Below, in pieces: positions 10,515 to 47,700 of a stretch of DNA of 64,000 nucleotides. Position numbers and translations under genes: made by a program. A model generated the notes under the pieces. That model saw nothing but the letters and a program-made list of their open reading frames with translations. It searched no databases and was not told where the DNA came from. Where the stretch lies: positions 1 to 64,000 of the IMG/VR virus record IMGVR_UViG_3300036985_005808. One strand, given 5' to 3'. Source of the DNA: a virus. Position 1 is the stretch's first letter, and every line of letters begins with the position of its first letter.

Positions 10515-13500
10515 TTACATTGCATTGCTCAGTATTTTCTGTTGTATATCATTGGATGTTTGTTGCAATCTGGTCATCTGTCCCATAAAATTCGCCATGG
10601 TTACCATCTGGTCGGCAAACTGCTGATCGGCGGCATCGCCCTTCTCAGTGATGCCACCGGCTGTAATACGTTTGAAGGCTTCTGCCATGGTTGCTTGTAA
10701 TTCAGCCACAACATCTTTGAGAGCAGTTGCGGTGTCAACCCCACTTGATTCTTTAAGTTCCTTGACCATTCTACCTATTTCTTCACCAGGAATTGATGCT
10801 TTGGCACCAGGAATGCCTGCTGCCTCTAAAGTGGTAACTCCAACTTTTGCCGCTCCTAAGTCATATGTTGTTCCCACGCCTGAATTTAAGATTTGTTTCC
10901 AGGTAGCTGGATCCGTTATTATTTGAGTTGCTTTGTCAAATGCTCCCAATTCAGCTGCAATATCTTTAAGTACCTTTAGATTAGTGGTCAACGGCCCCTG
11001 ATTAATACCAGTCCACTCGTTGGCTCCGAAGGCTGTCATCCCCATGCCTCCTTCACCAGCACCCATACCATTGGCAAATTTGCCGCCTTCGTTATAGTCT
11101 GCATTATTTAAACTTATTGTTTGCACAACTTTATCTATTGCAGATGTATAACCAGACACTCCATCAACTAAATTCCCAGTTGACTCTGCCATATCTTTAA
11201 ACATTTTTACAAAATCGCCAGACCCGTTTTGCATAGGGATAACTGCTTCTTTACCATGTAAGGTTGCAGGATATCCAGTTTCAGGACCATCAACTTGTAT
11301 TCCTTCTTTGGCCGTAATTCGGCCACCTTCATTCTTGGCTGCACTAAAATGCATGGCATCCTTGATACTATTCCAGTCACCGCCCCACCCTAACCCTAGA
11401 GATGATGCTACTTGTCTAATACCTTCAGGCATATCAGTAACTAATGTACTTCCCATTGGATTTGCCGCTGGGTTAATATCAATGGCACTACCCTTGGCAT
11501 GCGCACTCTTGACCCCCGGTTGCCCACGAACATCACGATCAACATAGCCACCTAAACTTTGTATATCATACCCAACGCTGTCAAGGTAATCAATTAATTT
11601 TTGAAACGCTGGTACTGTGTCAGCGGCAACTGATGCACTCTTGCCACTCTTACTTGAAATTGTTCCTAATTTAGGTTTACTATCTCCGCCACCAACATTG
11701 ATATCTCCCGATCCTAGCGGTGCACTTTTACTTTGACTTCCACCGCCAAAGAAGCTTTTGATCTTGTCCGTAAAGCCACCACCCGCACCACCACCCGCAC
11801 CACCACCCGCACCACCACCTACACCACCAGCTATGTTACCATTGGCCAGTTCGTCCATCTGTTTCTGCAGCATTGGAGTCTCAATCTCCATCAGTTGAGT
11901 CTTTATCTCCATATAACTCTTGAATGCCAAGCTGTATTTGTCAGCAAGATTGGCATCAATTTTTGTTGCTTTTTCTATTCTTTTGGCATCTTTCAGTGTG
12001 TTGTCCTGTAGCGTGGTATTGTCGGCAACCAACTGTTTGTAACGCACGCTGTAATCGCCGGCACGATCCACGTCCAACGCAGTGATTTTTGACAATTGTT
12101 CAAACTTTTTCACAATACCAGCATTGATATTACCAATGGTAGTGTCTGTGCTTGAAGTTTTATTCACGTTGCTACCAAGAGCATCCAGAGATGAATTAAT
12201 TCCATCCATTACAGATTTCATTTTTGGATTGGATAATATATTACCAGCGGCTGAAGGAATGAATAATTCTGGACCTTTTTCACCCACCAGGTAAGGACTT
12301 TTTGCAGTAACGGGACCTCCTTCTGCCCTAGCCGGTGGTGCTGCTTTGTCAAAGATTGACTTTTGCCACCAGGCTTTCTCCGGTGCTGGTGCTGCTGCCG
12401 GTGCTTCTGGTGCTGCTGCCGGTGGTGGCAGCATGAAATAGGAACCAATACTTTTCATAAAATTACCAATGCCGCCATTTTCTGGTGCTGCTGCTGGTGG
12501 TGCAGGTGGTGGTGGTACAGGTGGTGGTGCAGGTGGTGGTGCAAGTTGTGCTGCTTCTACCGCCCGTGCCCGTGCCGCAGCTAGTGCATCTGACACTGGT
12601 GCCGGTGCTCCCGGTGCTGCCGGTGCTCCCGGTGCTGGTTGTGCTGCTGGTGCTGCTGGTGCTGGTTGTGCTGCTGGTGCTGCTGGTGCTGCTGGTGCTG
12701 CTGGTGCTCCCGGTGCTCCCGGTGCTGCTGGTGCTGCTGGTGCTGCTGGTGCTGCCGGTGCTCCCGGTGCTGGTTGTGCTGCTGGTGCTGCTGGTGCTGC
12801 TGGTGCTGGTTGTGCTGCTGGTGCTGCTGGTGCTGCTGGTGCTGCTGGTGCTGCTGGTGCTCCCGGTGCTGGTCGTGCTGCTGGTGCTGGTCGTGCTGCT
12901 GGTGCTGCTGGTGCTGGCAGCATGAAAAAGGATAGAGCGTCATCCATGAATGTTTTCTGACGCTCCAGTACGTTGTCTTGTCCATGCAGCATCTTGCCTA
13001 CCGAATCAGCAGATTGACCAATAATTTTGCCGCCTACATATCCCGCAGCGACACCTATTGCTCCACCAATAATCGCGGTTAGCGGAGCGGCAGGGCCGCC
13101 CAGGGCCGCACCTACGGCCAGGCCTTTAGCTCCTCCTACCACAGCTGCACCAATTTGCCCCGTTGCTTCAAAGCCGCCGGCTTTTACAAAACCTTTACTA
13201 CCATCCTCTGCGGCCCCAGTAACTGCGCCTGCCACAGTGGGTCCGGTTTTTAAAAAGTCTGGTATCATTTCATAGAGCTTTTTAAAGGCCTTCCACAATT
13301 CTATTGACATCTTTTGTAGTCCTTCAAACGCCAGGCCTGCCAGGCGAGCAAACTCCATCAACTCGTGGTTCAGGTCAATTGAACCACCAAGTCGGGCCAG
13401 AGCAGCTGTTTGCTCAGCCTGAAATGCTGTAATCTGCGCATCCATCAAACCAGCATAGTAGTCTGTGGTCTTACCGCCGCTCGTCATCAGCCTGTCTTGC

Positions 13501-14783
13501 TCTGCTTTGATCTCGATATATTTTGCCTGGACATCACCCATTGCAAAAATTCCCAGTTTAAGCCCGTCAGCGTAGGATGTAGAAAAATTTTCCAGCTGAC
13601 CTAACTGTGCCGAGAAGTTAAAGTCCTTGACAAACTGTCCTGCTGCTTTTCCAATTTGGGTAACTGCCTGAAACTGATCAATTTGCCCATCAAGTAACTG
13701 TTGACCGCTTTTCACAATCTCGCCGTTTGTACCTATGTAGGCTTTTTGTGCAGCTTCTGTACCTATAAATCCAGTAATGGTATCCCGAAAGCCCTGCCCC
13801 ATTTCTTTGCTTTGGCTAGTGAGCATCGCATTGACATCTATCAGTTTCTGGGCAGCAGCTTCACCTTTTGTTGCTCGCACTTCTTCAACCTTGGCACGGA
13901 ATCGTTGTTCGCTGAGAGCAGATTCCCTTATTTCTTCCGCTTCTTTGCGTGTTAATCCAGTGAGTTTGGTCAATGCATCTTGTTCAAGCAAATAGGCTCT
14001 TGCACCAGCGGTCAACTGTGCCGTGGTCATTTTTTGACTGTTGCCCAGGCGAGTTTGTAATTGTAAATAGCCCAGCGTGCCTTCAGAGACGTCAGTCATG
14101 GTCATGCCCAGACGTAAAAATTCTTGTCTATTTCCTTGAAGGGATTGATTAAAATCAGCCATTCGGTCAAAGCCTTTACTAACCGATCCTCCAAACAATG
14201 CTAAATCTTTGCTGTTGGCCGCCACGGCTGTGACCATGCTGCCCATTTCGTCCATGGTCAGACCTAATTTTTTAGAGTTGTTGTACAATCCGTCCAGTCC
14301 AGATGCACTCAGAGCACCTGCTTTTGCTATGTCGTTGCCGCTTTTGTATAGTTTGTCGCCCAATTCATTGGCCATTTTTTGCAGTTCAACTGACGTTTCA
14401 AACGCTGACACCGCTAAGGCCGACATTCCGCCCACTACAAGTTTGATCAGTGGACCACCGGGAACCAGCAGCGTCAATGCCACTGCTGCGAATTTTGCCG
14501 CTTGTACCACGCTGTCCATTGCACCATTCATGGCAGACGCACCTTTTGCTCCCAGCGTCATGGCCTTGGTTGCTGCCATGGCTGCGGCTTTCAAGGATAT
14601 CAATACGCCACCCAGCGCATCCAAGCCAGCCGTGGCATTTTCAAATCCAAGGGTATTTTTTACCTGAGCATCAAAAGACCTTTGTTGAGTTGATGCACTG
14701 ATTTCGCCATTTCTTGCCATTTCCTCGTTAACTCGCCGAGTGATCTCAGCCAATTCTTCAAGTTCACGATTTGCATCAGTCAT
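10515..14783 (-). CDS. Tape-measure-like tail protein with M15-type peptidase domain
   Basis: 1422 residues. The N-terminal 480 residues are helical with a hydrophobic stretch at about 90-125 (VALTLLVPGGPLIKLVVGG), as in tape measure proteins. Residues about 620-735 are Ala-Pro repeats, and a Gly-rich linker lies near 985-1000. Two GEKGPELFIPS/HGKEAVIPM motifs are typical of tape measures. Between them, at about 1050-1150, lies a D,D/L,D-peptidase-like M15 domain: GGYVDRDVRGQPG, SAHAKGSAIDIN (zinc ligands His and Asp) and DAMHFS (third ligand His). Role inferred: sets tail length and opens peptidoglycan during DNA entry. T4's own tape measure is gp29; this gene is placed beside the portal and transcribed with it. 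Confidence 0.8.
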   Translation of the reverse strand: MTDANRELEELAEITRRVNEEMARNGEISASTQQRSFDAQVKNTLGFENATAGLDALGGVLISLKAAAMAATKAMTLGAKGASAMNGAMDSVVQAAKFAAVALTLLVPGGPLIKLVVGGMSALAVSAFETSVELQKMANELGDKLYKSGNDIAKAGALSASGLDGLYNNSKKLGLTMDEMGSMVTAVAANSKDLALFGGSVSKGFDRMADFNQSLQGNRQEFLRLGMTMTDVSEGTLGYLQLQTRLGNSQKMTTAQLTAGARAYLLEQDALTKLTGLTRKEAEEIRESALSEQRFRAKVEEVRATKGEAAAQKLIDVNAMLTSQSKEMGQGFRDTITGFIGTEAAQKAYIGTNGEIVKSGQQLLDGQIDQFQAVTQIGKAAGQFVKDFNFSAQLGQLENFSTSYADGLKLGIFAMGDVQAKYIEIKAEQDRLMTSGGKTTDYYAGLMDAQITAFQAEQTAALARLGGSIDLNHELMEFARLAGLAFEGLQKMSIELWKAFKKLYEMIPDFLKTGPTVAGAVTGAAEDGSKGFVKAGGFEATGQIGAAVVGGAKGLAVGAALGGPAAPLTAIIGGAIGVAAGYVGGKIIGQSADSVGKMLHGQDNVLERQKTFMDDALSFFMLPAPAAPAARPAPAARPAPGAPAAPAAPAAPAAPAAQPAPAAPAAPAAQPAPGAPAAPAAPAAPAAPGAPGAPAAPAAPAAPAAQPAPAAPAAQPAPGAPAAPGAPAPVSDALAAARARAVEAAQLAPPPAPPPVPPPPAPPAAAPENGGIGNFMKSIGSYFMLPPPAAAPEAPAAAPAPEKAWWQKSIFDKAAPPARAEGGPVTAKSPYLVGEKGPELFIPSAAGNILSNPKMKSVMDGINSSLDALGSNVNKTSSTDTTIGNINAGIVKKFEQLSKITALDVDRAGDYSVRYKQLVADNTTLQDNTLKDAKRIEKATKIDANLADKYSLAFKSYMEIKTQLMEIETPMLQKQMDELANGNIAGGVGGGAGGGAGGGAGGGFTDKIKSFFGGGSQSKSAPLGSGDINVGGGDSKPKLGTISSKSGKSASVAADTVPAFQKLIDYLDSVGYDIQSLGGYVDRDVRGQPGVKSAHAKGSAIDINPAANPMGSTLVTDMPEGIRQVASSLGLGWGGDWNSIKDAMHFSAAKNEGGRITAKEGIQVDGPETGYPATLHGKEAVIPMQNGSGDFVKMFKDMAESTGNLVDGVSGYTSAIDKVVQTISLNNADYNEGGKFANGMGAGEGGMGMTAFGANEWTGINQGPLTTNLKVLKDIAAELGAFDKATQIITDPATWKQILNSGVGTTYDLGAAKVGVTTLEAAGIPGAKASIPGEEIGRMVKELKESSGVDTATALKDVVAELQATMAEAFKRITAGGITEKGDAADQQFADQMVTMANFMGQMTRLQQTSNDIQQKILSNAM
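12590..12920 (-). repeat. Ala-Pro-coding tandem repeat in the tape measure gene
   Basis: About 330 bases of near-perfect 9-15 base units (minus strand GCACCAGCAGCA type) encode PAAPAAPAAQPAP-like sequence. A second, shorter block lies near 12370-12430. It is probably a rigid extended linker. Confidence 0.9.
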
Positions 14784-14823: not shown

Positions 14824-15666
14824 ATGTCCCAAACTTCCAATCCACTTCGTCAATTTTTTAGACAACCTGCAGTTTATATCAAATTGCCGTCTGATGGTCA
14901 ATTCTGGCCTGAAAAATCTATCAGTATGACAGAAAATCGAGAATTGCCAGTTTTGCCAATGACTGCCATTGACGAAATAACCTATCGAACCCCTGACGCA
15001 TTGTTCAATGGACAAGCTGTGATATCGGTCATACAAAGTTGTATACCTGCTATCAAGAATGCATGGGATATGCCTGGCATGGATACAAACGCAGTGCTGG
15101 TGGCCATTCGTATTGCCAGTTACGGGCATGGCCTGCCTATTGTCTGCACTTGCCCTGCTTGTAAAACAGAACAACAGTATGAAATTGATCTTCGATCAGT
15201 ACTGGAATCTATTCAAGCGCCAGACTACACATTCATACTCACACATGGCGATTTGGAAATTGCATTCAAACCGGCTAACTATCAAAATCAAAACACAGCA
15301 AATCAACTGCAATTTGAAGAACAACGCAATATTCGGTCCATACCTGAATTAGATATTCCAGACAGTGAAAAAATAAAAAAACTCAATGCTTCATTGTCAA
15401 GAATCACCGAACTCACAGTGGATGCAATGAAGTTTAACATTGACAGCATCCGCACACCTCATGCTCTGGTTACCGAATCAGAGCATATTCAAGAATTTTT
15501 AACCAACTGCGATCGAAAATTATTTGGACAGATTCGTGATCGCGTGATTGCATTCCGAGTACAATCTGAACTTGCCCCAATCAAATTGGTGTGTGACAAT
15601 TGTGCCAACGAATACGAACAAACTGTGAACTTAGATCAAACAAGTTTTTTCGAAGCCGCCTCCTAA
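14824..15666 (+). CDS. 26: Baseplate hub protein, T4 gp26-like (zero-frame product)
   Basis: 280 residues. NPLRQFFRQPAVYIKLPSDG, LPVLPMTAIDEITYRTPDAL and AVISVIQSCIPAIKNAWDMP are strongly characteristic of the T4 gp26/baseplate family of T4-like phages. Cysteines at 108/110/113 (CTCPAC) and a C-terminal CDNC pair (about 257-260) form a probable zinc ribbon. In T4, gp26 and gp51 take part in baseplate hub assembly. The last codons read Thr-Ser-Phe-Phe-Glu-Ala-Ala-Ser-stop across a T TTT TTC heptamer at 15645-15651, followed by a GC-rich stem, so part of the ribosomes may shift to frame -1 and make a 352-residue extended form. It is divergent from the tape-measure gene. Confidence 0.85.
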   Translation: MSQTSNPLRQFFRQPAVYIKLPSDGQFWPEKSISMTENRELPVLPMTAIDEITYRTPDALFNGQAVISVIQSCIPAIKNAWDMPGMDTNAVLVAIRIASYGHGLPIVCTCPACKTEQQYEIDLRSVLESIQAPDYTFILTHGDLEIAFKPANYQNQNTANQLQFEEQRNIRSIPELDIPDSEKIKKLNASLSRITELTVDAMKFNIDSIRTPHALVTESEHIQEFLTNCDRKLFGQIRDRVIAFRVQSELAPIKLVCDNCANEYEQTVNLDQTSFFEAAS

Positions 15667-15720
15667 TCTCAAGTCGACAAGACGTTTCTGACTTGGTTGA
15701 CCAAATGGATCAGGAGGCGG
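15645..15720 (+). promoter_or_regulatory. Putative programmed -1 frameshift signal
   Basis: The heptamer T TTT TTC (15645-15651) is in the correct X XXY YYZ register of the gp26-like frame. Four bases later CCGCCTCC (15656-15663) is perfectly complementary to GGAGGCGG (15713-15720). An inner stem CAAGTC (15670-15675) / GACTTG (15690-15695) can form in the loop. The -1 frame is open from the heptamer to 15881 and reads as a sensible helical protein from the slip site, while no ATG occurs before 15705. Confidence 0.65.
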
Positions 15721-15881
15721 ACAATCTACGTCGGCAAGGTTTACGTATGTCTTGGTACATGCGAGGTGGTGCAACATATGATGATATCATGAACATGAGT
15801 CACAGTGAACGCACCATGATTGGTGAACTGATCAAAGACAATCTAGAAACAACCAAAACCAGCAGACTTCCATTCTTCTAA
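15651..15881 (+). CDS. gp51-like segment, probably made as a -1 frameshift extension of the gp26-like protein
   Basis: After the slip the frame reads RSRLLISSRQDVSDLV, then DQMDQEADNLRRQG, then MSWYMRGGATYDDIMNMS and ends TKTSRLPFF: 76 residues, helical, like the short gp51-type hub assembly proteins that follow gp26 in T4-like phages. Independent initiation is possible at ATG 15705 (58 residues) or ATG 15747 (44 residues), but neither has a well-placed ribosome site. The only AGGAGG (15712-15717) is about 30 bases before 15747 and is part of the frameshift stem. The stop overlaps the ATG of the next gene by one base. Confidence 0.65.
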   Translation, partial: RSRLLISSRQDVSDLVDQMDQEADNLRRQGLRMSWYMRGGATYDDIMNMSHSERTMIGELIKDNLETTKTSRLPFF

Positions 15882-16384
15882 TGAATCAAACCCAAGTACA
15901 TAAAGATATACTATGTTGGATTGAGACTTTTGTTGAGGTTCCTCATCTAGCACTGGGTGGGTGGCCTCCGTGTCCATTTGCCAGATCAGCTAGACTTAAA
16001 AATACAATAGCTGTGTTAGTGGGCACAGATCCATACGAAGATTTAAAAAATCGCAGCGAGCAAGGTATGGAGAATTACGAAGTTGTGGTATATGCATATG
16101 ATCCTGTGGTATGGCCATATGAAATGTTTAGCAAAAGTTTAGAATCAGCCAATCATGAGTTTTTAAATCACCGTGACTTAATTGCGCTAGAAGATCATCC
16201 CAGTGACATAGAAATAGTAAACGGTATTACAATGAATCAAGGAACATATGCTCTTGCATTGGTGCAACCACTGGCTGATCTCAATCACAAGGCAGTATCT
16301 ATGGCTGCAAAAGGATTTTACAACACATGGCCTGAAGAATATTTGAAAGTGTTATTTAAACATAGAATAGATCCCAGAGCATGA
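15881..16384 (+). CDS. Conserved hypothetical protein
   Basis: 167 residues with no family I can name. Noticeable features are CWIETFVEVPHLALGGWPPCPFARSARL, an N-terminal motif with two cysteines (Cys12, Cys31) and an aromatic-rich loop, and a later VNGITMNQGTYALALVQPL. No signal peptide or membrane helix. The ATG overlaps the preceding stop (TAATG) and its stop overlaps the next start (ATGA), so it is translationally coupled in a five-gene unit between the baseplate gene and the nucleoside phosphorylase. A metabolic or accessory role fits its neighbours better than a structural one, but this is only context. Confidence 0.65.
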   Translation: MNQTQVHKDILCWIETFVEVPHLALGGWPPCPFARSARLKNTIAVLVGTDPYEDLKNRSEQGMENYEVVVYAYDPVVWPYEMFSKSLESANHEFLNHRDLIALEDHPSDIEIVNGITMNQGTYALALVQPLADLNHKAVSMAAKGFYNTWPEEYLKVLFKHRIDPRA

Positions 16385-16812
16385 GTTATGAATACGCTAG
16401 AATTAATCTTGCTCAAACAACCTACACAGCAACATGTGACTGGTACTATATCACTCAGCCAGATATTGCAGAGCTAAACGACATCTACCGAACGTATTGT
16501 ATCTACAAACACTTTGCCAGTGTAATGCCAATATTTGACAGTCAGTATCTTGATCCCAATACAGATGTCATTGGCTATCGTGATCAAAACAAACTTGCGG
16601 CATTTTCGTTGATTCATCGGTACGATAACAACAATGCATTGTGTGCTCAATTTGCTTGGAACTATAAAAAGCCAAAACTACGGCTAGGAATTTCCAGTCT
16701 ACAGACTGAATGCGCTATATATCGTGAGCGTGGATTTAAGTACCTATATTTAGATCAAGCACACTTATACAAACAAGGCATACAAGGCTTTGAACTACTG
16801 GGACCAATATAA
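16381..16812 (+). CDS. Possible GNAT-like acyltransferase
   Basis: 143 residues. The central part (DVIGYRDQNKLAAFSLIHRY) and the C-terminal part (LGISSLQTECAIYRERGFKYLYL) follow the beta-bulge and helix-strand order of GNAT N-acetyltransferases, the latter like the YERxGF segment that often ends that fold. The acetyl-CoA P-loop (Q/RxxGxG/A) is not clearly present, so the call is tentative. Coupled by ATGA overlap to the gene before, and one base from the next. Substrate unknown. Confidence 0.5.
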   Translation: MSYEYARINLAQTTYTATCDWYYITQPDIAELNDIYRTYCIYKHFASVMPIFDSQYLDPNTDVIGYRDQNKLAAFSLIHRYDNNNALCAQFAWNYKKPKLRLGISSLQTECAIYRERGFKYLYLDQAHLYKQGIQGFELLGPI

Positions 16813-18558: not shown

Positions 18559-19620
18559 TTAGTATAGTTGAAGTTTTTTTAGTAGAGTTTGGTTTTCAAA
18601 CAACATACCCAGATTGTATCTGTTGTGTTGTTGGTTAAATGGGCTACACCATGCCGTGGACCCAGACTTTCCAAAATTGGTATAGTCTGTGCCTAACCCA
18701 AAATGCACAACTTTGGTTTGTTTTAACCCTAGTTTATCGCACCAATAAGTTTGCTGGTTGTAGTATTTGTTCACATTGTAATCTATGGGAAACTGATTTA
18801 TAATGTCCAATGCTAACCCAGCGCTCAATCGATTGCAGATATTCTCATCGTTGCTCATCTGCATTGGGTCACTGGGTTTTGTTTTGCACATGCGAACTGC
18901 AATTTTAGCACATTGCACTGGAAATGTCTTGCTAAAACTAAATGTAATCTGTTTGATACAGTCTGCGCTGAGGTCTATATCAACTGCACCACTGCTGTTT
19001 GGCAAATAGATAAAATCGACCAAGAGATCAATATTTTTACGATTGCATTCGTCCACTAGCCAATCAAAATGTTCGTGCTTGTCACCTATCAATGCAAAAG
19101 GATAACTGCAAATACAAATGTCCCCGGGTGCAAGATCTTCATCTTCGATATAAGCCCAGTTAGCGTTGATCTTGTTCCATATGTCCATGTGCCACCAGTA
19201 GTCTCCACGGAACACTCTGAATCTTTTGTTTTTATTAAACAAATAAAAATTTATAAAACTTTCCTGAGTCCCGGCACTGAACCCAACATACTTGAACTGA
19301 TCAAAATTATGCAATTTAAATTTGGTTCCTTGCATGACCCATGAAGGAAACTGTTGTTCAAATTGTTGAACCACCCAGGGGTTAAGCAAATGCCGGGACA
19401 AGTGTAAGACTTGTACATAATCAATCACATCGGGGTCTTTGATGCTGTTGCCGCTGCTGAAGATACTTCGTGCTCTTGACCGTACAGATTCAAATTTATT
19501 GTTGTCCGGAAACGCCCATACATATTCCCCAGGCACATCCAGCACACGATCAGCACTGGCTTTGGCCAAAGACCATGCAATGGTTCTGATCTGATTTATA
19601 TCTGTGTTAAAATCTTGCAT
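18559..19620 (-). CDS. PLP-dependent aminotransferase-fold protein, paralogue A
   Basis: 353 residues from ATG 19620; an in-frame ATG at 19653 adds 11 residues, but the later start matches the paralogue. Fold-type I PLP-enzyme features: FSAGTQESF (about 114-122) as the phosphate-binding turn, LLVDFIYLPNSSG with Asp202 in the place that contacts the pyridine nitrogen, and SFSKTFPVQCAKIAVRM with Lys231 as the likely Schiff-base lysine. It is clearly related to the gene at 20056-21066 (IRxxAxxxxxA, KDPxV, FSAGTxxSF, FRxxxGxYxxHxxxW). The reaction is unknown; amino transfer to a sugar, nucleotide or amino acid derivative is possible. Overlaps the gene upstream by about 25 bases. Confidence 0.65.
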   Translation of the reverse strand: MQDFNTDINQIRTIAWSLAKASADRVLDVPGEYVWAFPDNNKFESVRSRARSIFSSGNSIKDPDVIDYVQVLHLSRHLLNPWVVQQFEQQFPSWVMQGTKFKLHNFDQFKYVGFSAGTQESFINFYLFNKNKRFRVFRGDYWWHMDIWNKINANWAYIEDEDLAPGDICICSYPFALIGDKHEHFDWLVDECNRKNIDLLVDFIYLPNSSGAVDIDLSADCIKQITFSFSKTFPVQCAKIAVRMCKTKPSDPMQMSNDENICNRLSAGLALDIINQFPIDYNVNKYYNQQTYWCDKLGLKQTKVVHFGLGTDYTNFGKSGSTAWCSPFNQQHNRYNLGMLFENQTLLKKLQLY

Positions 19621-20066
19621 GCCTGTTGATAGTAGTTGTAATCTTCTTCCCATTGTGGGTCATTGTTGTTTTTTTCGTGTCTGATTTTTAGTATCCAGTA
19701 AAGCACAGGATTATGAAAATTTAAAATAAACTTTCCATTTGGACCAAAGAACAAACAACTAGGATATCGTTGGCCACCCTGATCTAAAAATTCGCTGTTC
19801 CAGATGAGTTCTTCTACGTCGTAGTCATCAATGACGATAGAGTCTATTTCAAAACTTCTATCTCTAACAATTTTTCCATCCTGCACAATTGTGTCTGACG
19901 GTAGTTTGTCCCAGTGCTCGATCACCAAGCAACAGTGCCCGGTGACACTATCATGATCGTACTCAAAATTATCAAGCACTGGACCAGAATATAGTTCATG
20001 GTTGTTCACTAAAATTTTACATTTTGGAGCATCAACAATGTTTTTGAATTTTAATTTAAGTTTCAT
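19596..20066 (-). CDS. Small beta-rich protein between two PLP-fold paralogues
   Basis: 156 residues from ATG 20066 (a TTG at 20081 would add five). Strand-rich with alternating hydrophobic residues (MKLKLKFKNIVDAPKCKILV, NNHELYSGPVLDNFEY, GHCCLVIEHWDKLPSD) and an acidic stretch IDSIVIDDYDVEELIW, then RYPSCLFFGPNGKFILNFHNP. The pattern suggests a beta-sandwich of carbohydrate-binding or jelly-roll type, but no named family is recognised. It overlaps both PLP-like genes (8-25 bases), so the three are almost certainly co-translated and probably work together. Confidence 0.6.
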   Translation of the reverse strand: MKLKLKFKNIVDAPKCKILVNNHELYSGPVLDNFEYDHDSVTGHCCLVIEHWDKLPSDTIVQDGKIVRDRSFEIDSIVIDDYDVEELIWNSEFLDQGGQRYPSCLFFGPNGKFILNFHNPVLYWILKIRHEKNNNDPQWEEDYNYYQQACKILTQI

Positions 20067-21066
20067 TTTTGATTGTTTCAAACAAGTTCCAGTTTTCGAA
20101 TATGCTCACTAGACTCACTCGATTGTTAAACTTTGACGGATCTATATTTAACTGATACACTTGTAATAGATTACGTCTACTGTATTGATTCCAGTCTGCA
20201 TTGCCCACTGCAAACGTAACACAATTACCCGGCACCAAGTCAAAATATTCACATACAGACTGTTGTTTGGCTCGATACTTGTTGTACATGTAGTTGCTGG
20301 GGAATTTATCAATAATTTTCAACCCAATGTATGCTGATAAATGGTTGTTGTAATTTATATCATCATGTAGTTTTTGTCCATCAACTACGTTTCTAGTATA
20401 TCGTATTCCTATGCGCAAATTGGCAATGGGAAATGCCTTGCTGAGACTGAACGACACTGTATCTATACACGGTGACGACACATCAATTTTTACATTTCCG
20501 CTGATGGGATAGTAACAACAATCCACAAGCACCGGTACACCCAGCTGTTCACAAGTTGCAATCAAGTTATCATATTCAGGATGCACAGATCCTGAATCAC
20601 AAAAGGGCATACTGATCACAACTGCATCATTGGCACTTATAGGATCATGATCAGTGATAAAACTCCAATCAATTTGATTGCTGATCCAAGTTTTTAGATG
20701 ATAAAAGTATTCACCTGTGTAGCATCTAAATTTTCTATTTCTATGTCTTAGGTAAAAACTGTCAAACGATTGAGTAGTACCAGCACTGAAATCCATCTGA
20801 TATTGATCCAGACCAATCACGGTGTTTGATTGATGGGTTTGCAACCAGTTAGTGAACGAATTTTTAAATTTAGACAAGTTGTCCCACTTGTTCAACCCGT
20901 TGTCCAACAGATTATCTTGGAATATATTTTTGATAAAATAAGCTACTTCAGGATCTTTAACTGCACGAGATCCTTGAAATATGTGATTGGCTGTTGATCT
21001 AGCGTCAAAAAAGTTTTTAGAATTTGCCGCTGAGATCAAATAAGCAAGTTTGCGTATGTTATGCAA
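20056..21066 (-). CDS. PLP-dependent aminotransferase-fold protein, paralogue B (TTG start)
   Basis: 336 residues. The first in-frame start is TTG at 21066, overlapping the end of gp46 by 8 bases; no ATG occurs before residue 91, so TTG is the probable start. Motifs parallel paralogue A and are closer to the classical class I/II pattern: FSAGTTQSF (93-101), VPVLVDCCYYPISG with Asp182, and SFSLSKAFPIANLRIGIRY with Lys210 and Arg218. All residues expected for Schiff-base chemistry are therefore present. The pair probably arose by duplication and has diverged strongly. The substrate is unknown. Confidence 0.68.
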   Translation of the reverse strand: MHNIRKLAYLISAANSKNFFDARSTANHIFQGSRAVKDPEVAYFIKNIFQDNLLDNGLNKWDNLSKFKNSFTNWLQTHQSNTVIGLDQYQMDFSAGTTQSFDSFYLRHRNRKFRCYTGEYFYHLKTWISNQIDWSFITDHDPISANDAVVISMPFCDSGSVHPEYDNLIATCEQLGVPVLVDCCYYPISGNVKIDVSSPCIDTVSFSLSKAFPIANLRIGIRYTRNVVDGQKLHDDINYNNHLSAYIGLKIIDKFPSNYMYNKYRAKQQSVCEYFDLVPGNCVTFAVGNADWNQYSRRNLLQVYQLNIDPSKFNNRVSLVSIFENWNLFETIKNET

Positions 21067-44700: not shown

Positions 44701-47700
44701 GAGTCAGGTAAATGTGTATTCACAATTCCTGGGGAGCAAAGGCACAATTTTATCTGCAGAACTACTGAGTCAGGCCAATCTAGGCAAAGAATCTGCTGAC
44801 TATGACATTTATGAAAACTGGGCAGTACAACGTGCAGTATATGGGGCAAATGCCAATCGCAGTTTTGTTGAATTGAGATTAGATCGTGCTTTGCTAAGTT
44901 CTAACCCCAGCTTGGTTCAAGTGATACAGCCATTGCAAACAAGTCAAGCAGATCAACCCATTTTGCTGTCAGATGTTTGGAGACAAAGCTATAAATTGTC
45001 GTCCACACAATTCTTACCTACCACACTGACACAGGTAACTGATATTGCATTGCCCACAGCCGGCTATGTAAATTTGGAAGATGCAGATATCACAACATTT
45101 GACTTGGGTGCTCGCAGTACCATTGCTGCCAATTTGAATGCAGTACAAGTTGGAGCCACTGTGTGGGTGGCAAAGGTCAACAACTATGATTGGGATATCT
45201 ATCGTTGTGTCAGTATACCGGGGTTTATCGACCATATCTGTGACAATCTTGACGGCACAAGTATTGTGAACTTTACCAAACCACACAACTTGACTGTGGG
45301 ACAACGATTGATAATCAAACAATTCAGCATGAATGTTGATGGAATATATCGTGTGTTGACCATTGACACTGTGAATCGAATTACCATAGCGTATTCGTTT
45401 GTGGCCGGACAACAGACTGTGGTCACCGGAACAGGTATTGGATTTATTCTGCAAACGCAACGAGTGTCGCAGGCCAGTAATATTGTAGATCTTCCTTATA
45501 CCAATGACATACAAACTGGTGCTAGAGTATGGGTAGACAATGCCGGCGACGGCTTGTGGACAGTTTTAGAAAAACAAAATCAGTTCACTGATGTGATTGA
45601 GCTGGCCCCTGAACTATTGGATGCCACTGAACAATACGGTCAAAGTGTCACCCAGGCCAGAAACCGATTTGCTGCCTTGGTTGGCAGTCCACGATACGGA
45701 TTCCCCACAGGCTCAGAAAAAGGTGGCGTGTATGTTTATGTTAAAAATTATGCTGATCAGTATGCACCAGTAAGTCCAATTGTTGGGGATGCTGTGTTGA
45801 CATTAGATATCAGCGGTGTTCGCGGATATGGTAATGCTGTGGATTTTGGCAATCAATCCTGGGCTGCTGCCGGAGCCAGTAAAAGTTTAGGTCCCGCAGG
45901 TGAATCTGATGTTGGATATGCCGCAGTTATCTTTAGAGACCCGGTGTTGGGAGCACCAGGATCAATTCCTTATGTACAATGGCAGTTGTTGGTGCCGCCG
46001 GAACTGCCTAACACTGTGGTGGCAGGTGAATTTGGATACAGTGTGGCGGTCAGCAGTGACGAACGATGGATGTACATTGGAGCCCCGGGTGCAAACAAAG
46101 TATATGCGTATGGACAAGTGGATTGGCAAAATCAATATGTCCGAGCAGCCGGCGACGGCATCACAACAACATACAACATAGCCGACACTATACAAATTGG
46201 TCAGGCCACCCAACTGAATGTTACTATAGACGGAGCCAGTCAACTAATAAATGTTGACTACACTGTGGCTGGTGATTTATCGTTGGTGACATTTACCACG
46301 GCGCCAACAGCAGCAGCCGTGATTAATATTGCTAGAATTAGCAAGAAGAATATTGATGCTAATTATTATTATAGTGTAACTCAAACAACCACTTCAGGCA
46401 GTGGCAGCGGTGCTGAATTTACCATCTATAGACAACGTAACGAAGTTGGCCAACCAGGAGCCACTTATGGTGAAGTTGGAGTGACTTCTGGCGGCAGTGG
46501 ATATGTTGTGACAGACACCATAACATTTGCATCTAGTAAATTTGGGGGTACTGCCAATTTAGTACTCACCGTGGCCAGCATTGGCCCTGGCGGAGCAGTA
46601 GTGACATTTACTATTGCGTACTCTCCAGCTGGTCTAACATCAACCTTTTCGTTGAATGAATATTTCTTCACTGCCACAGACATCTACTCATTCTCAGTGT
46701 ATGTGGATGGGGTGTTATATCGTCCAATATTAGATTATGATTTTGATGCTGACTCCAGCTCAATAGCTGATCTTGACCTGACATTTGTTCTGCCTGATGG
46801 TACAACTCCTATAAATGCCACCACTTATCCAGCGGCAGGCACACTGATCACAATTCAAGCCAAGGCCTATTACGAATATGTTGACACATTAACTGTGTCT
46901 GGACTGGCAGTGGATGCACGATTTGGACATAGCATAACAACAACAACTGATGGACGCCAAGTACTAATTGGGTGCAAAGACGAAGATATTGATACTAATG
47001 TGGATGCCGGTAGTGTGTATGTGTTTGATAGAAATGTTCAACGATTTATATACGGATCAGACCCAATCTCCACTACATTTACTGTGCTAGGAACTGTTGC
47101 CGACCCAGTTAGTGTTATTGTGAACAATGTATTTTTGATCAATCAAACCAATGCAGTGATTGATGCCCCAGACAGTTTTACAGTGAGCGGTAATGATGTC
47201 ACAATTAATTCAGATTTACAAGTGGGTGACGTGATAGAGATTGAAACCAATCAATTCTCGCAGATGCAACAAATTAACAAAGATACAGTGACAGAATTTA
47301 CTAACTTTGGCCAGTCGGTTGACATATGTGTTTACAATTGCAGTTTGTATGTTGGCGCCCCACAGGATAGCACAGATGGATGGAAGTCAGGATCAGTGCA
47401 ACGCAGCGTGAATCAAAGCAGAGTATATGGCATCATTACCAGCACCGTGGTTGACCCTGTGTTGGATAACGGTGATACAATCCGAGTAAACAATATTGAT
47501 GTTGCTGTGCCTGTTGCTCCCAATCAAAATATAACTGGGTTAGCTGCTGCAATAAATGCCACTGTGCCAAATGTCACAGCCACCGTAAGTGCGGGCCTAT
47601 TGACCATTAGAGTGACAAATTTTGATTCAGCTGCGCCGGGTAACAAACTACAAGTTGCACCAGGCAGTATTGGCACAACATTTGAAGATCTAGGGTTTGA

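Follow-up and report, generated by a model that had tools for sequence, protein, structure and literature searches.

Does the gp26-like gene at this locus encode a single tail assembly chaperone or, by means of a programmed -1 frameshift, a short and a long one? The window, i.e., the whole stretch of 64,000 nucleotides analyzed here, is part of a 65.9-kb contig of an uncultured virus, and the gene lies at positions 14824 to 15666 on its plus strand. The following elements of the locus are considered.

10515 to 14783, minus strand: divergently oriented tape-measure-like gene, whose 1422-aa product contains an M15 peptidase domain and is presumed to be the chaperone's client (phrog_1538, PF13539)
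14824 to 15666, plus strand: predicted short form of a gp26-like tail assembly chaperone (TAC-N; 280 aa), with the stop codon TAA at 15664 to 15666 (PF12322, phrog_150, AlphaFold/BFVD)
15645 to 15651, plus strand: candidate slippery heptamer T TTT TTC, kept in lineage junctions, jumbo-phage isolates, and other T4-like phages
15651 to 15881, plus strand: -1 segment of 76 codons, which would supply the long form (TAC-NC) with a gp51-type C-terminal domain, from length, codon pattern, and profile match
15652 to 15655, plus strand: 4-nt spacer between heptamer and stem (sequence and fold)
15656 to 15664, plus strand: predicted 5' arm of the stimulatory stem, CCGCCTCCT (fold and synonymous-codon test on 72 sequences)
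15712 to 15720, plus strand: predicted 3' arm of the stimulatory stem, AGGAGGCGG (fold and synonymous-codon test; 21 nt further on in the sister group)

With a probability of about 0.9, judging from sequence comparisons, this is a T4-like tail assembly chaperone gene whose short and long products are made by programmed -1 frameshifting.

A gp26-like gene with two predicted products

Read without a shift, the gene encodes 280 aa; a shift at the heptamer would join 276 residues to 76 more, giving the 352-residue fusion of the original prediction. The predicted short and long forms have their N-terminal part in common. In profile searches, the short protein matches PF12322 (E = 4.8e-13; 49.7 bits against a gathering cut-off of 24.5) and phrog_150 (E = 4e-17). 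Its AlphaFold model has a pLDDT of 34 when built with no alignment and 84.8 when 50 relatives are included. In BFVD, the matches of the model are T4-like baseplate hub assembly proteins (best E = 4e-23). Foldseek found no match to the model in the PDB, and sequence searches of the PDB found none either, hence no solved chaperone structure was matched. The BFVD fold matches of the model of 14824 to 15663 also include uncharacterized proteins of giant phages, namely, Ralstonia phages RSF1 and RP12, Erwinia phages phiEaH2 and Special G, PaBG, and phiRSL1, with E values of about 1e-4 to 3e-7. Going by the modeled fold, these proteins might possibly be the chaperones of those phages.

A conserved candidate slip site near the end of the gene

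The site reads AGT TTT TTC GAA GCC GCC TCC TAA, which places T TTT TTC in the predicted register and leaves four sense codons ahead of the stop codon (15664 to 15666). Among the 69 window ORFs of at least 100 aa, this is the sole in-register slippery heptamer near the ORF end that is followed by a -1 extension of more than 50 codons. TTTTTTC is present in the same codons in all 8 IMG/VR relatives examined (51 to 56% identity) and in 10 of 10 jumbo-phage isolates, including 121Q, RaK2, BF, GAP32, CBB, PA5oct, and Atu_ph07, which are about 26 to 32% identical where aligned. In both sets, the zero-frame stop comes 1 to about 15 codons past the heptamer and the -1 frame always continues. A wider IMG/VR scan of the same lineage found both TTTTTTC and a four-codon zero-frame tail in 75 of 75 distinct junctions, which share ancestry and do not amount to independent trials. 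The same Phe-Phe is encoded by TTTTTTC in cyanophages S-PM2 and P-SSM2, KVP40, and phiW-14 and by TTTTTTT in HTVC008M and Cr30, and in all six the domain that follows is encoded in the -1 frame. Single-gene phages yielded no case of a broken heptamer with both ORFs retained, nor of a conserved start codon for the second ORF with its own ribosome site.

Codon choice at the site is restricted. The Phe-Phe pair is TTT TTC in all the genes compared, while other Phe-Phe pairs in the same genes use TTTTTC in 18 of 55 cases and Phe codons elsewhere in them comprise 523 TTT and 253 TTC. The codon 5' of the site specifies Ser, Asn, Ala, His, Thr, or Arg, yet its third base is T in all. This pattern points to an in-register X XXY YYZ heptamer conserved beyond the apparent needs of the amino acid sequence. 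Inheritance alone is an unlikely cause of this conservation because the divergence is so deep. S-PM2, P-SSM2, and Cr30 also carry GGAGGG about 10 bases 5' of the T run, possibly a dnaX-like upstream Shine-Dalgarno stimulator; it is absent in the window.

Protein coding in the -1 frame

The -1 frame is open from the heptamer to 15881, and the tail that it encodes is exactly 76 codons long in all 71 lineage junctions that do not run off the contig end. In each part of the segment, across 72 sequences, codon position 2 of the -1 frame has the lowest entropy and position 3 the highest, and this holds also for the codons upstream of any start that is widely shared. The remaining two frames contain means of six and five stops. 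The earliest widely shared in-frame start is codon 19, an ATG in 62 of the 72 sequences, which in the window lies at 15705 and has no ribosome site. The codon-position entropy indicates coding ahead of any shared start, in line with the original proposal of a protein-like segment that begins upstream of any ATG. The -1 frame is under protein-level constraint straight after the heptamer.

A profile of the -1 domain built from the group aligns with the C termini of T4 and cyanophage gp51 (E = 5e-5 over 34 columns), which argues for homology between the two. The window segment alone gave no direct family match in the profile search, being too divergent. The records of Atu_ph07, PA5oct, and RaK2 either carry no annotation of the -1 segment or begin it at an internal start.

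The downstream RNA stem

As predicted, CCGCCTCC (15656 to 15663) is a perfect complement of GGAGGCGG (15713 to 15720), with 49 bases between them, and the helix can be extended to 9 bp. The folding energy of the region is -29.4 kcal/mol, with z = -2.1 relative to dinucleotide shuffles. The inner CAAGTC/GACTTG stem proposed along with it fared less well: the complement is present, but the minimum-energy fold pairs these bases otherwise and no conservation was found.

Across 72 lineage sequences, the best helix formed by the 5' arm averages 20.6, compared with 14.0 (SD, 0.37) in synonymous randomizations, in which downstream codons were replaced by synonymous ones according to the group's own usage (60 sets; highest value, 15.0). 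Folding energy is lower than expected in 68 of the 72. The 5' arm is fixed. The end of the 3' arm lies at +73 to +75 in the window's group and 21 nt further on, at +94 to +97, in the sister group. In the sister group, 95% of the cells of the stem are paired, compared with 41 to 67% once the partner is slid, and a compensatory change turns one C-G pair into U-A in 9 of 25 sequences. In the window's group, RNAalifold recovers solely a near-invariant five-pair core. Alignment of homologs supports the joint conservation of the heptamer and the -1 frame, while covariation of the stem is compensatory in the sister group but weak within the window's group. The stem core varies little in the latter, and support for the stem comes from the synonymous randomization and the sister group. 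Both suggest that a downstream stimulatory structure is present in the window's lineage.

Atu_ph07 and Phosso have a different helix in nearly the same place (GGCUCUUUGU/ACAAAGAGCC and GGCUCUUGUC/GGCAAGAGCC), and the hairpins of S-PM2 and P-SSM2 sit nearer to the heptamer. A clear downstream stem was not found in BF, GAP32, or Kaldavass. It is conceivable, if rather unlikely, that the stem is tuned: the AGGAGG-like 3' arm would have moved by exactly seven codons while staying paired to the fixed 5' arm, which contains CCUCC, and the RNA element would set the ratio of short to long chaperone, possibly through anti-Shine-Dalgarno competition by the ribosome for the arm.

Alternative explanations

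The locus could instead hold two overlapping genes, with the -1 ORF translated alone from an internal start, which is how GenBank annotates gp51 in cyanophages and KVP40. The S-PM2 and KVP40 records do list a separate gp51 gene, but T4 gp51 is a single chain with a gp26-type domain attached. Candidate starts exist: 121Q and most cyanophage-type sequences have a -1-frame ATG near the gp26 stop, and in the sister group AGGAGG lies shortly 5' of an ATG deep within the -1 segment. However, the segment is already coding over its first 18 codons, ahead of any shared start, and the codon-19 ATG lacks a ribosome site in the window, which together argue against a separate gene. Such a gene would also leave the invariant heptamer unexplained, and we consider this arrangement improbable.

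Slippage of RNA polymerase on the six T residues, producing some mRNA with an extra U that joins the frames, is less probable still. It needs a run, and the T6 run is invariant; in bacteria, transcriptional slippage usually occurs on longer runs. Moreover, it would require neither the C at the seventh base nor the downstream stem, yet both are conserved. As for a heptamer and an open frame brought together by chance, no points in its favor were found, and their conservation in 75 lineage junctions and 16 isolates makes its probability negligible. The heptamer is not fortuitous because, among the 69 window ORFs, no other in-register one near an ORF end has so long a -1 extension and because it is invariant in relatives.

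One gene with a predicted frameshift and two T4 genes

Each frameshift phage searched has one PF12322 protein and T4 has two, gp26 and gp51, consistent with the original statement that T4 has separate genes for the two functions. T4 gp26 and gp51 are paralogs (BLASTP E = 2e-6). The phrog_150 match covers residues 13 to 280 of the 282 in T4 gp51 but stops at 235 in gp26. The C terminus of T4 gp51 is covered by phrog_634 ("baseplate hub assembly catalyst"), whose match in cyanophages and KVP40 is the -1 ORF; the KVP40 record notes that its own -1 ORF is similar to the T4 gp51 C terminus. T4 gene 26 ends in GAG TTC TTT GAG TTA CTA TAA, where the heptamer is lost and Phe-Phe is retained. The predicted unshifted product corresponds to T4 gp26 and the predicted shifted product to the whole of T4 gp51. 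The earlier description of a gp26-gp51 fusion is accordingly correct in its frameshift link but not in its naming, as T4 gp51 is itself a gp26 paralog with a C-terminal segment.

The two arrangements are alike in having one short and one long form, both with PF12322, and differ in that T4 has two divergent genes with no heptamer, whereas here there is one gene and a slip site. From its spread, the frameshift is likely ancestral and the T4 two-gene state derived. The locus offers a clean, checkable case in which a single gene bearing a recoding signal (here and in cyanophages, KVP40, and jumbo phages) corresponds to two duplicated T4 genes. Annotations are corrected as well: in many phages, the small ORF 3' of gp26 that is labeled "gp51" or hypothetical would be the C-terminal part of a longer protein.

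Predicted function and known chaperone systems

Hub assembly chaperones include T4 gp26 and gp51, the latter being needed for assembly and missing from the finished particle (PMC3004832). Tail assembly chaperones typically comprise a short form and a longer one that carries an additional C-terminal domain, encoded beside the tape measure gene (PMC12846349). In the window, the divergent neighbor matches the tail length tape measure family phrog_1538 (E = 3.3e-8) and PF13539 (E = 7.9e-13), as expected from its original description as tape-measure-like, and most jumbo isolates have a divergent virion structural gene beside gp26. The analogy to lambda G/GT holds for the short and long forms with a shared N-terminal part, the predicted -1 shift close to where the short form ends, the extra C-terminal domain, and the adjacent tape-measure-like gene. 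The differences are that this gene is divergent here and that the heptamer is T TTT TTC, whereas that of lambda is G GGA AAG; PDB searches found no relation to the lambda proteins in sequence or solved structure. By analogy, the window's protein would act as a chaperone. The tape-measure-like gene contains a long Ala/Pro low-complexity repeat at 12469 to 12960.

Under programmed frameshifting, most ribosomes would stop at 15664 and release the gp26-type short form (TAC-N) of 280 aa. The minority would pause at the stem 4 nt past T TTT TTC and slip one base back, with the Phe-tRNAs re-pairing on TTT TTT, to make the 352-residue gp51-type protein (TAC-NC) with its extra 76-residue C-terminal domain. 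We infer the slip itself at T TTT TTC, as well as its efficiency, from sequence features. The two forms would guide the adjacent tape measure protein in hub/tail initiation, like lambda gpG and gpGT; the T4 counterpart would be the same two proteins made from the duplicated genes 26 (short) and 51 (long).

The abstract of the 2022 study by Vladimirov and colleagues reportedly deals with T4 genes 26 and 51 and with frameshifting in other T4-like groups. As far as PMC10885494 and PMC12846349 relate its content, the chaperones of that study (Vladimirov, Gautam & Davidson 2022, Virology 566:9-15, PMID 34826709) have short and long forms and a poly-T slip site, with a two-gene state in T4. The PRFect paper (PMC10885494) cites the same work for some T4-like phages that have no frameshift and instead carry a short chaperone gene and a long fused one. 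On these accounts, frameshifted T4-like chaperones are already described, and the window is a well-supported further example; the coverage of jumbo phages and the moving stem may be additional. In Vandenendeviridae and Andersonviridae, too, the short chaperone gene has a -1 frameshift with a poly-T motif close to its end, but the invariant motif there is GTTTTT (PMC12846349).

Related loci and other window ORFs

In Salmonella phage Vi01 (at about 47505 to 47670 of its record), the -1 frame after gp26 encodes a gp51-type domain. The junction, GAA ATT TTC ATT TAA, is without a T6 run, so that the slip site of Ackermannviridae may be a different one; the record has no annotated gene at this place. 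Campylobacter phage NCTC12673 (record positions 16129 to 16794) has a second, gp51-like gene after gp26, apparently split by an in-frame TAA into two same-frame ORFs, gp022 and gp023, possibly through a sequence error, a split gene, or recoding.

Within the window, the ORF at 16381 to 16812 weakly matches the C terminus of arginyl-tRNA-protein transferase (E = 7e-4, below the family cut-off). The minus-strand neighbors at 18559 to 19653 and 20056 to 21066 look similar in sequence and possibly represent a duplicated gene; the former has AAAAAAA near its end (18580) and a -1 extension of 42 codons.
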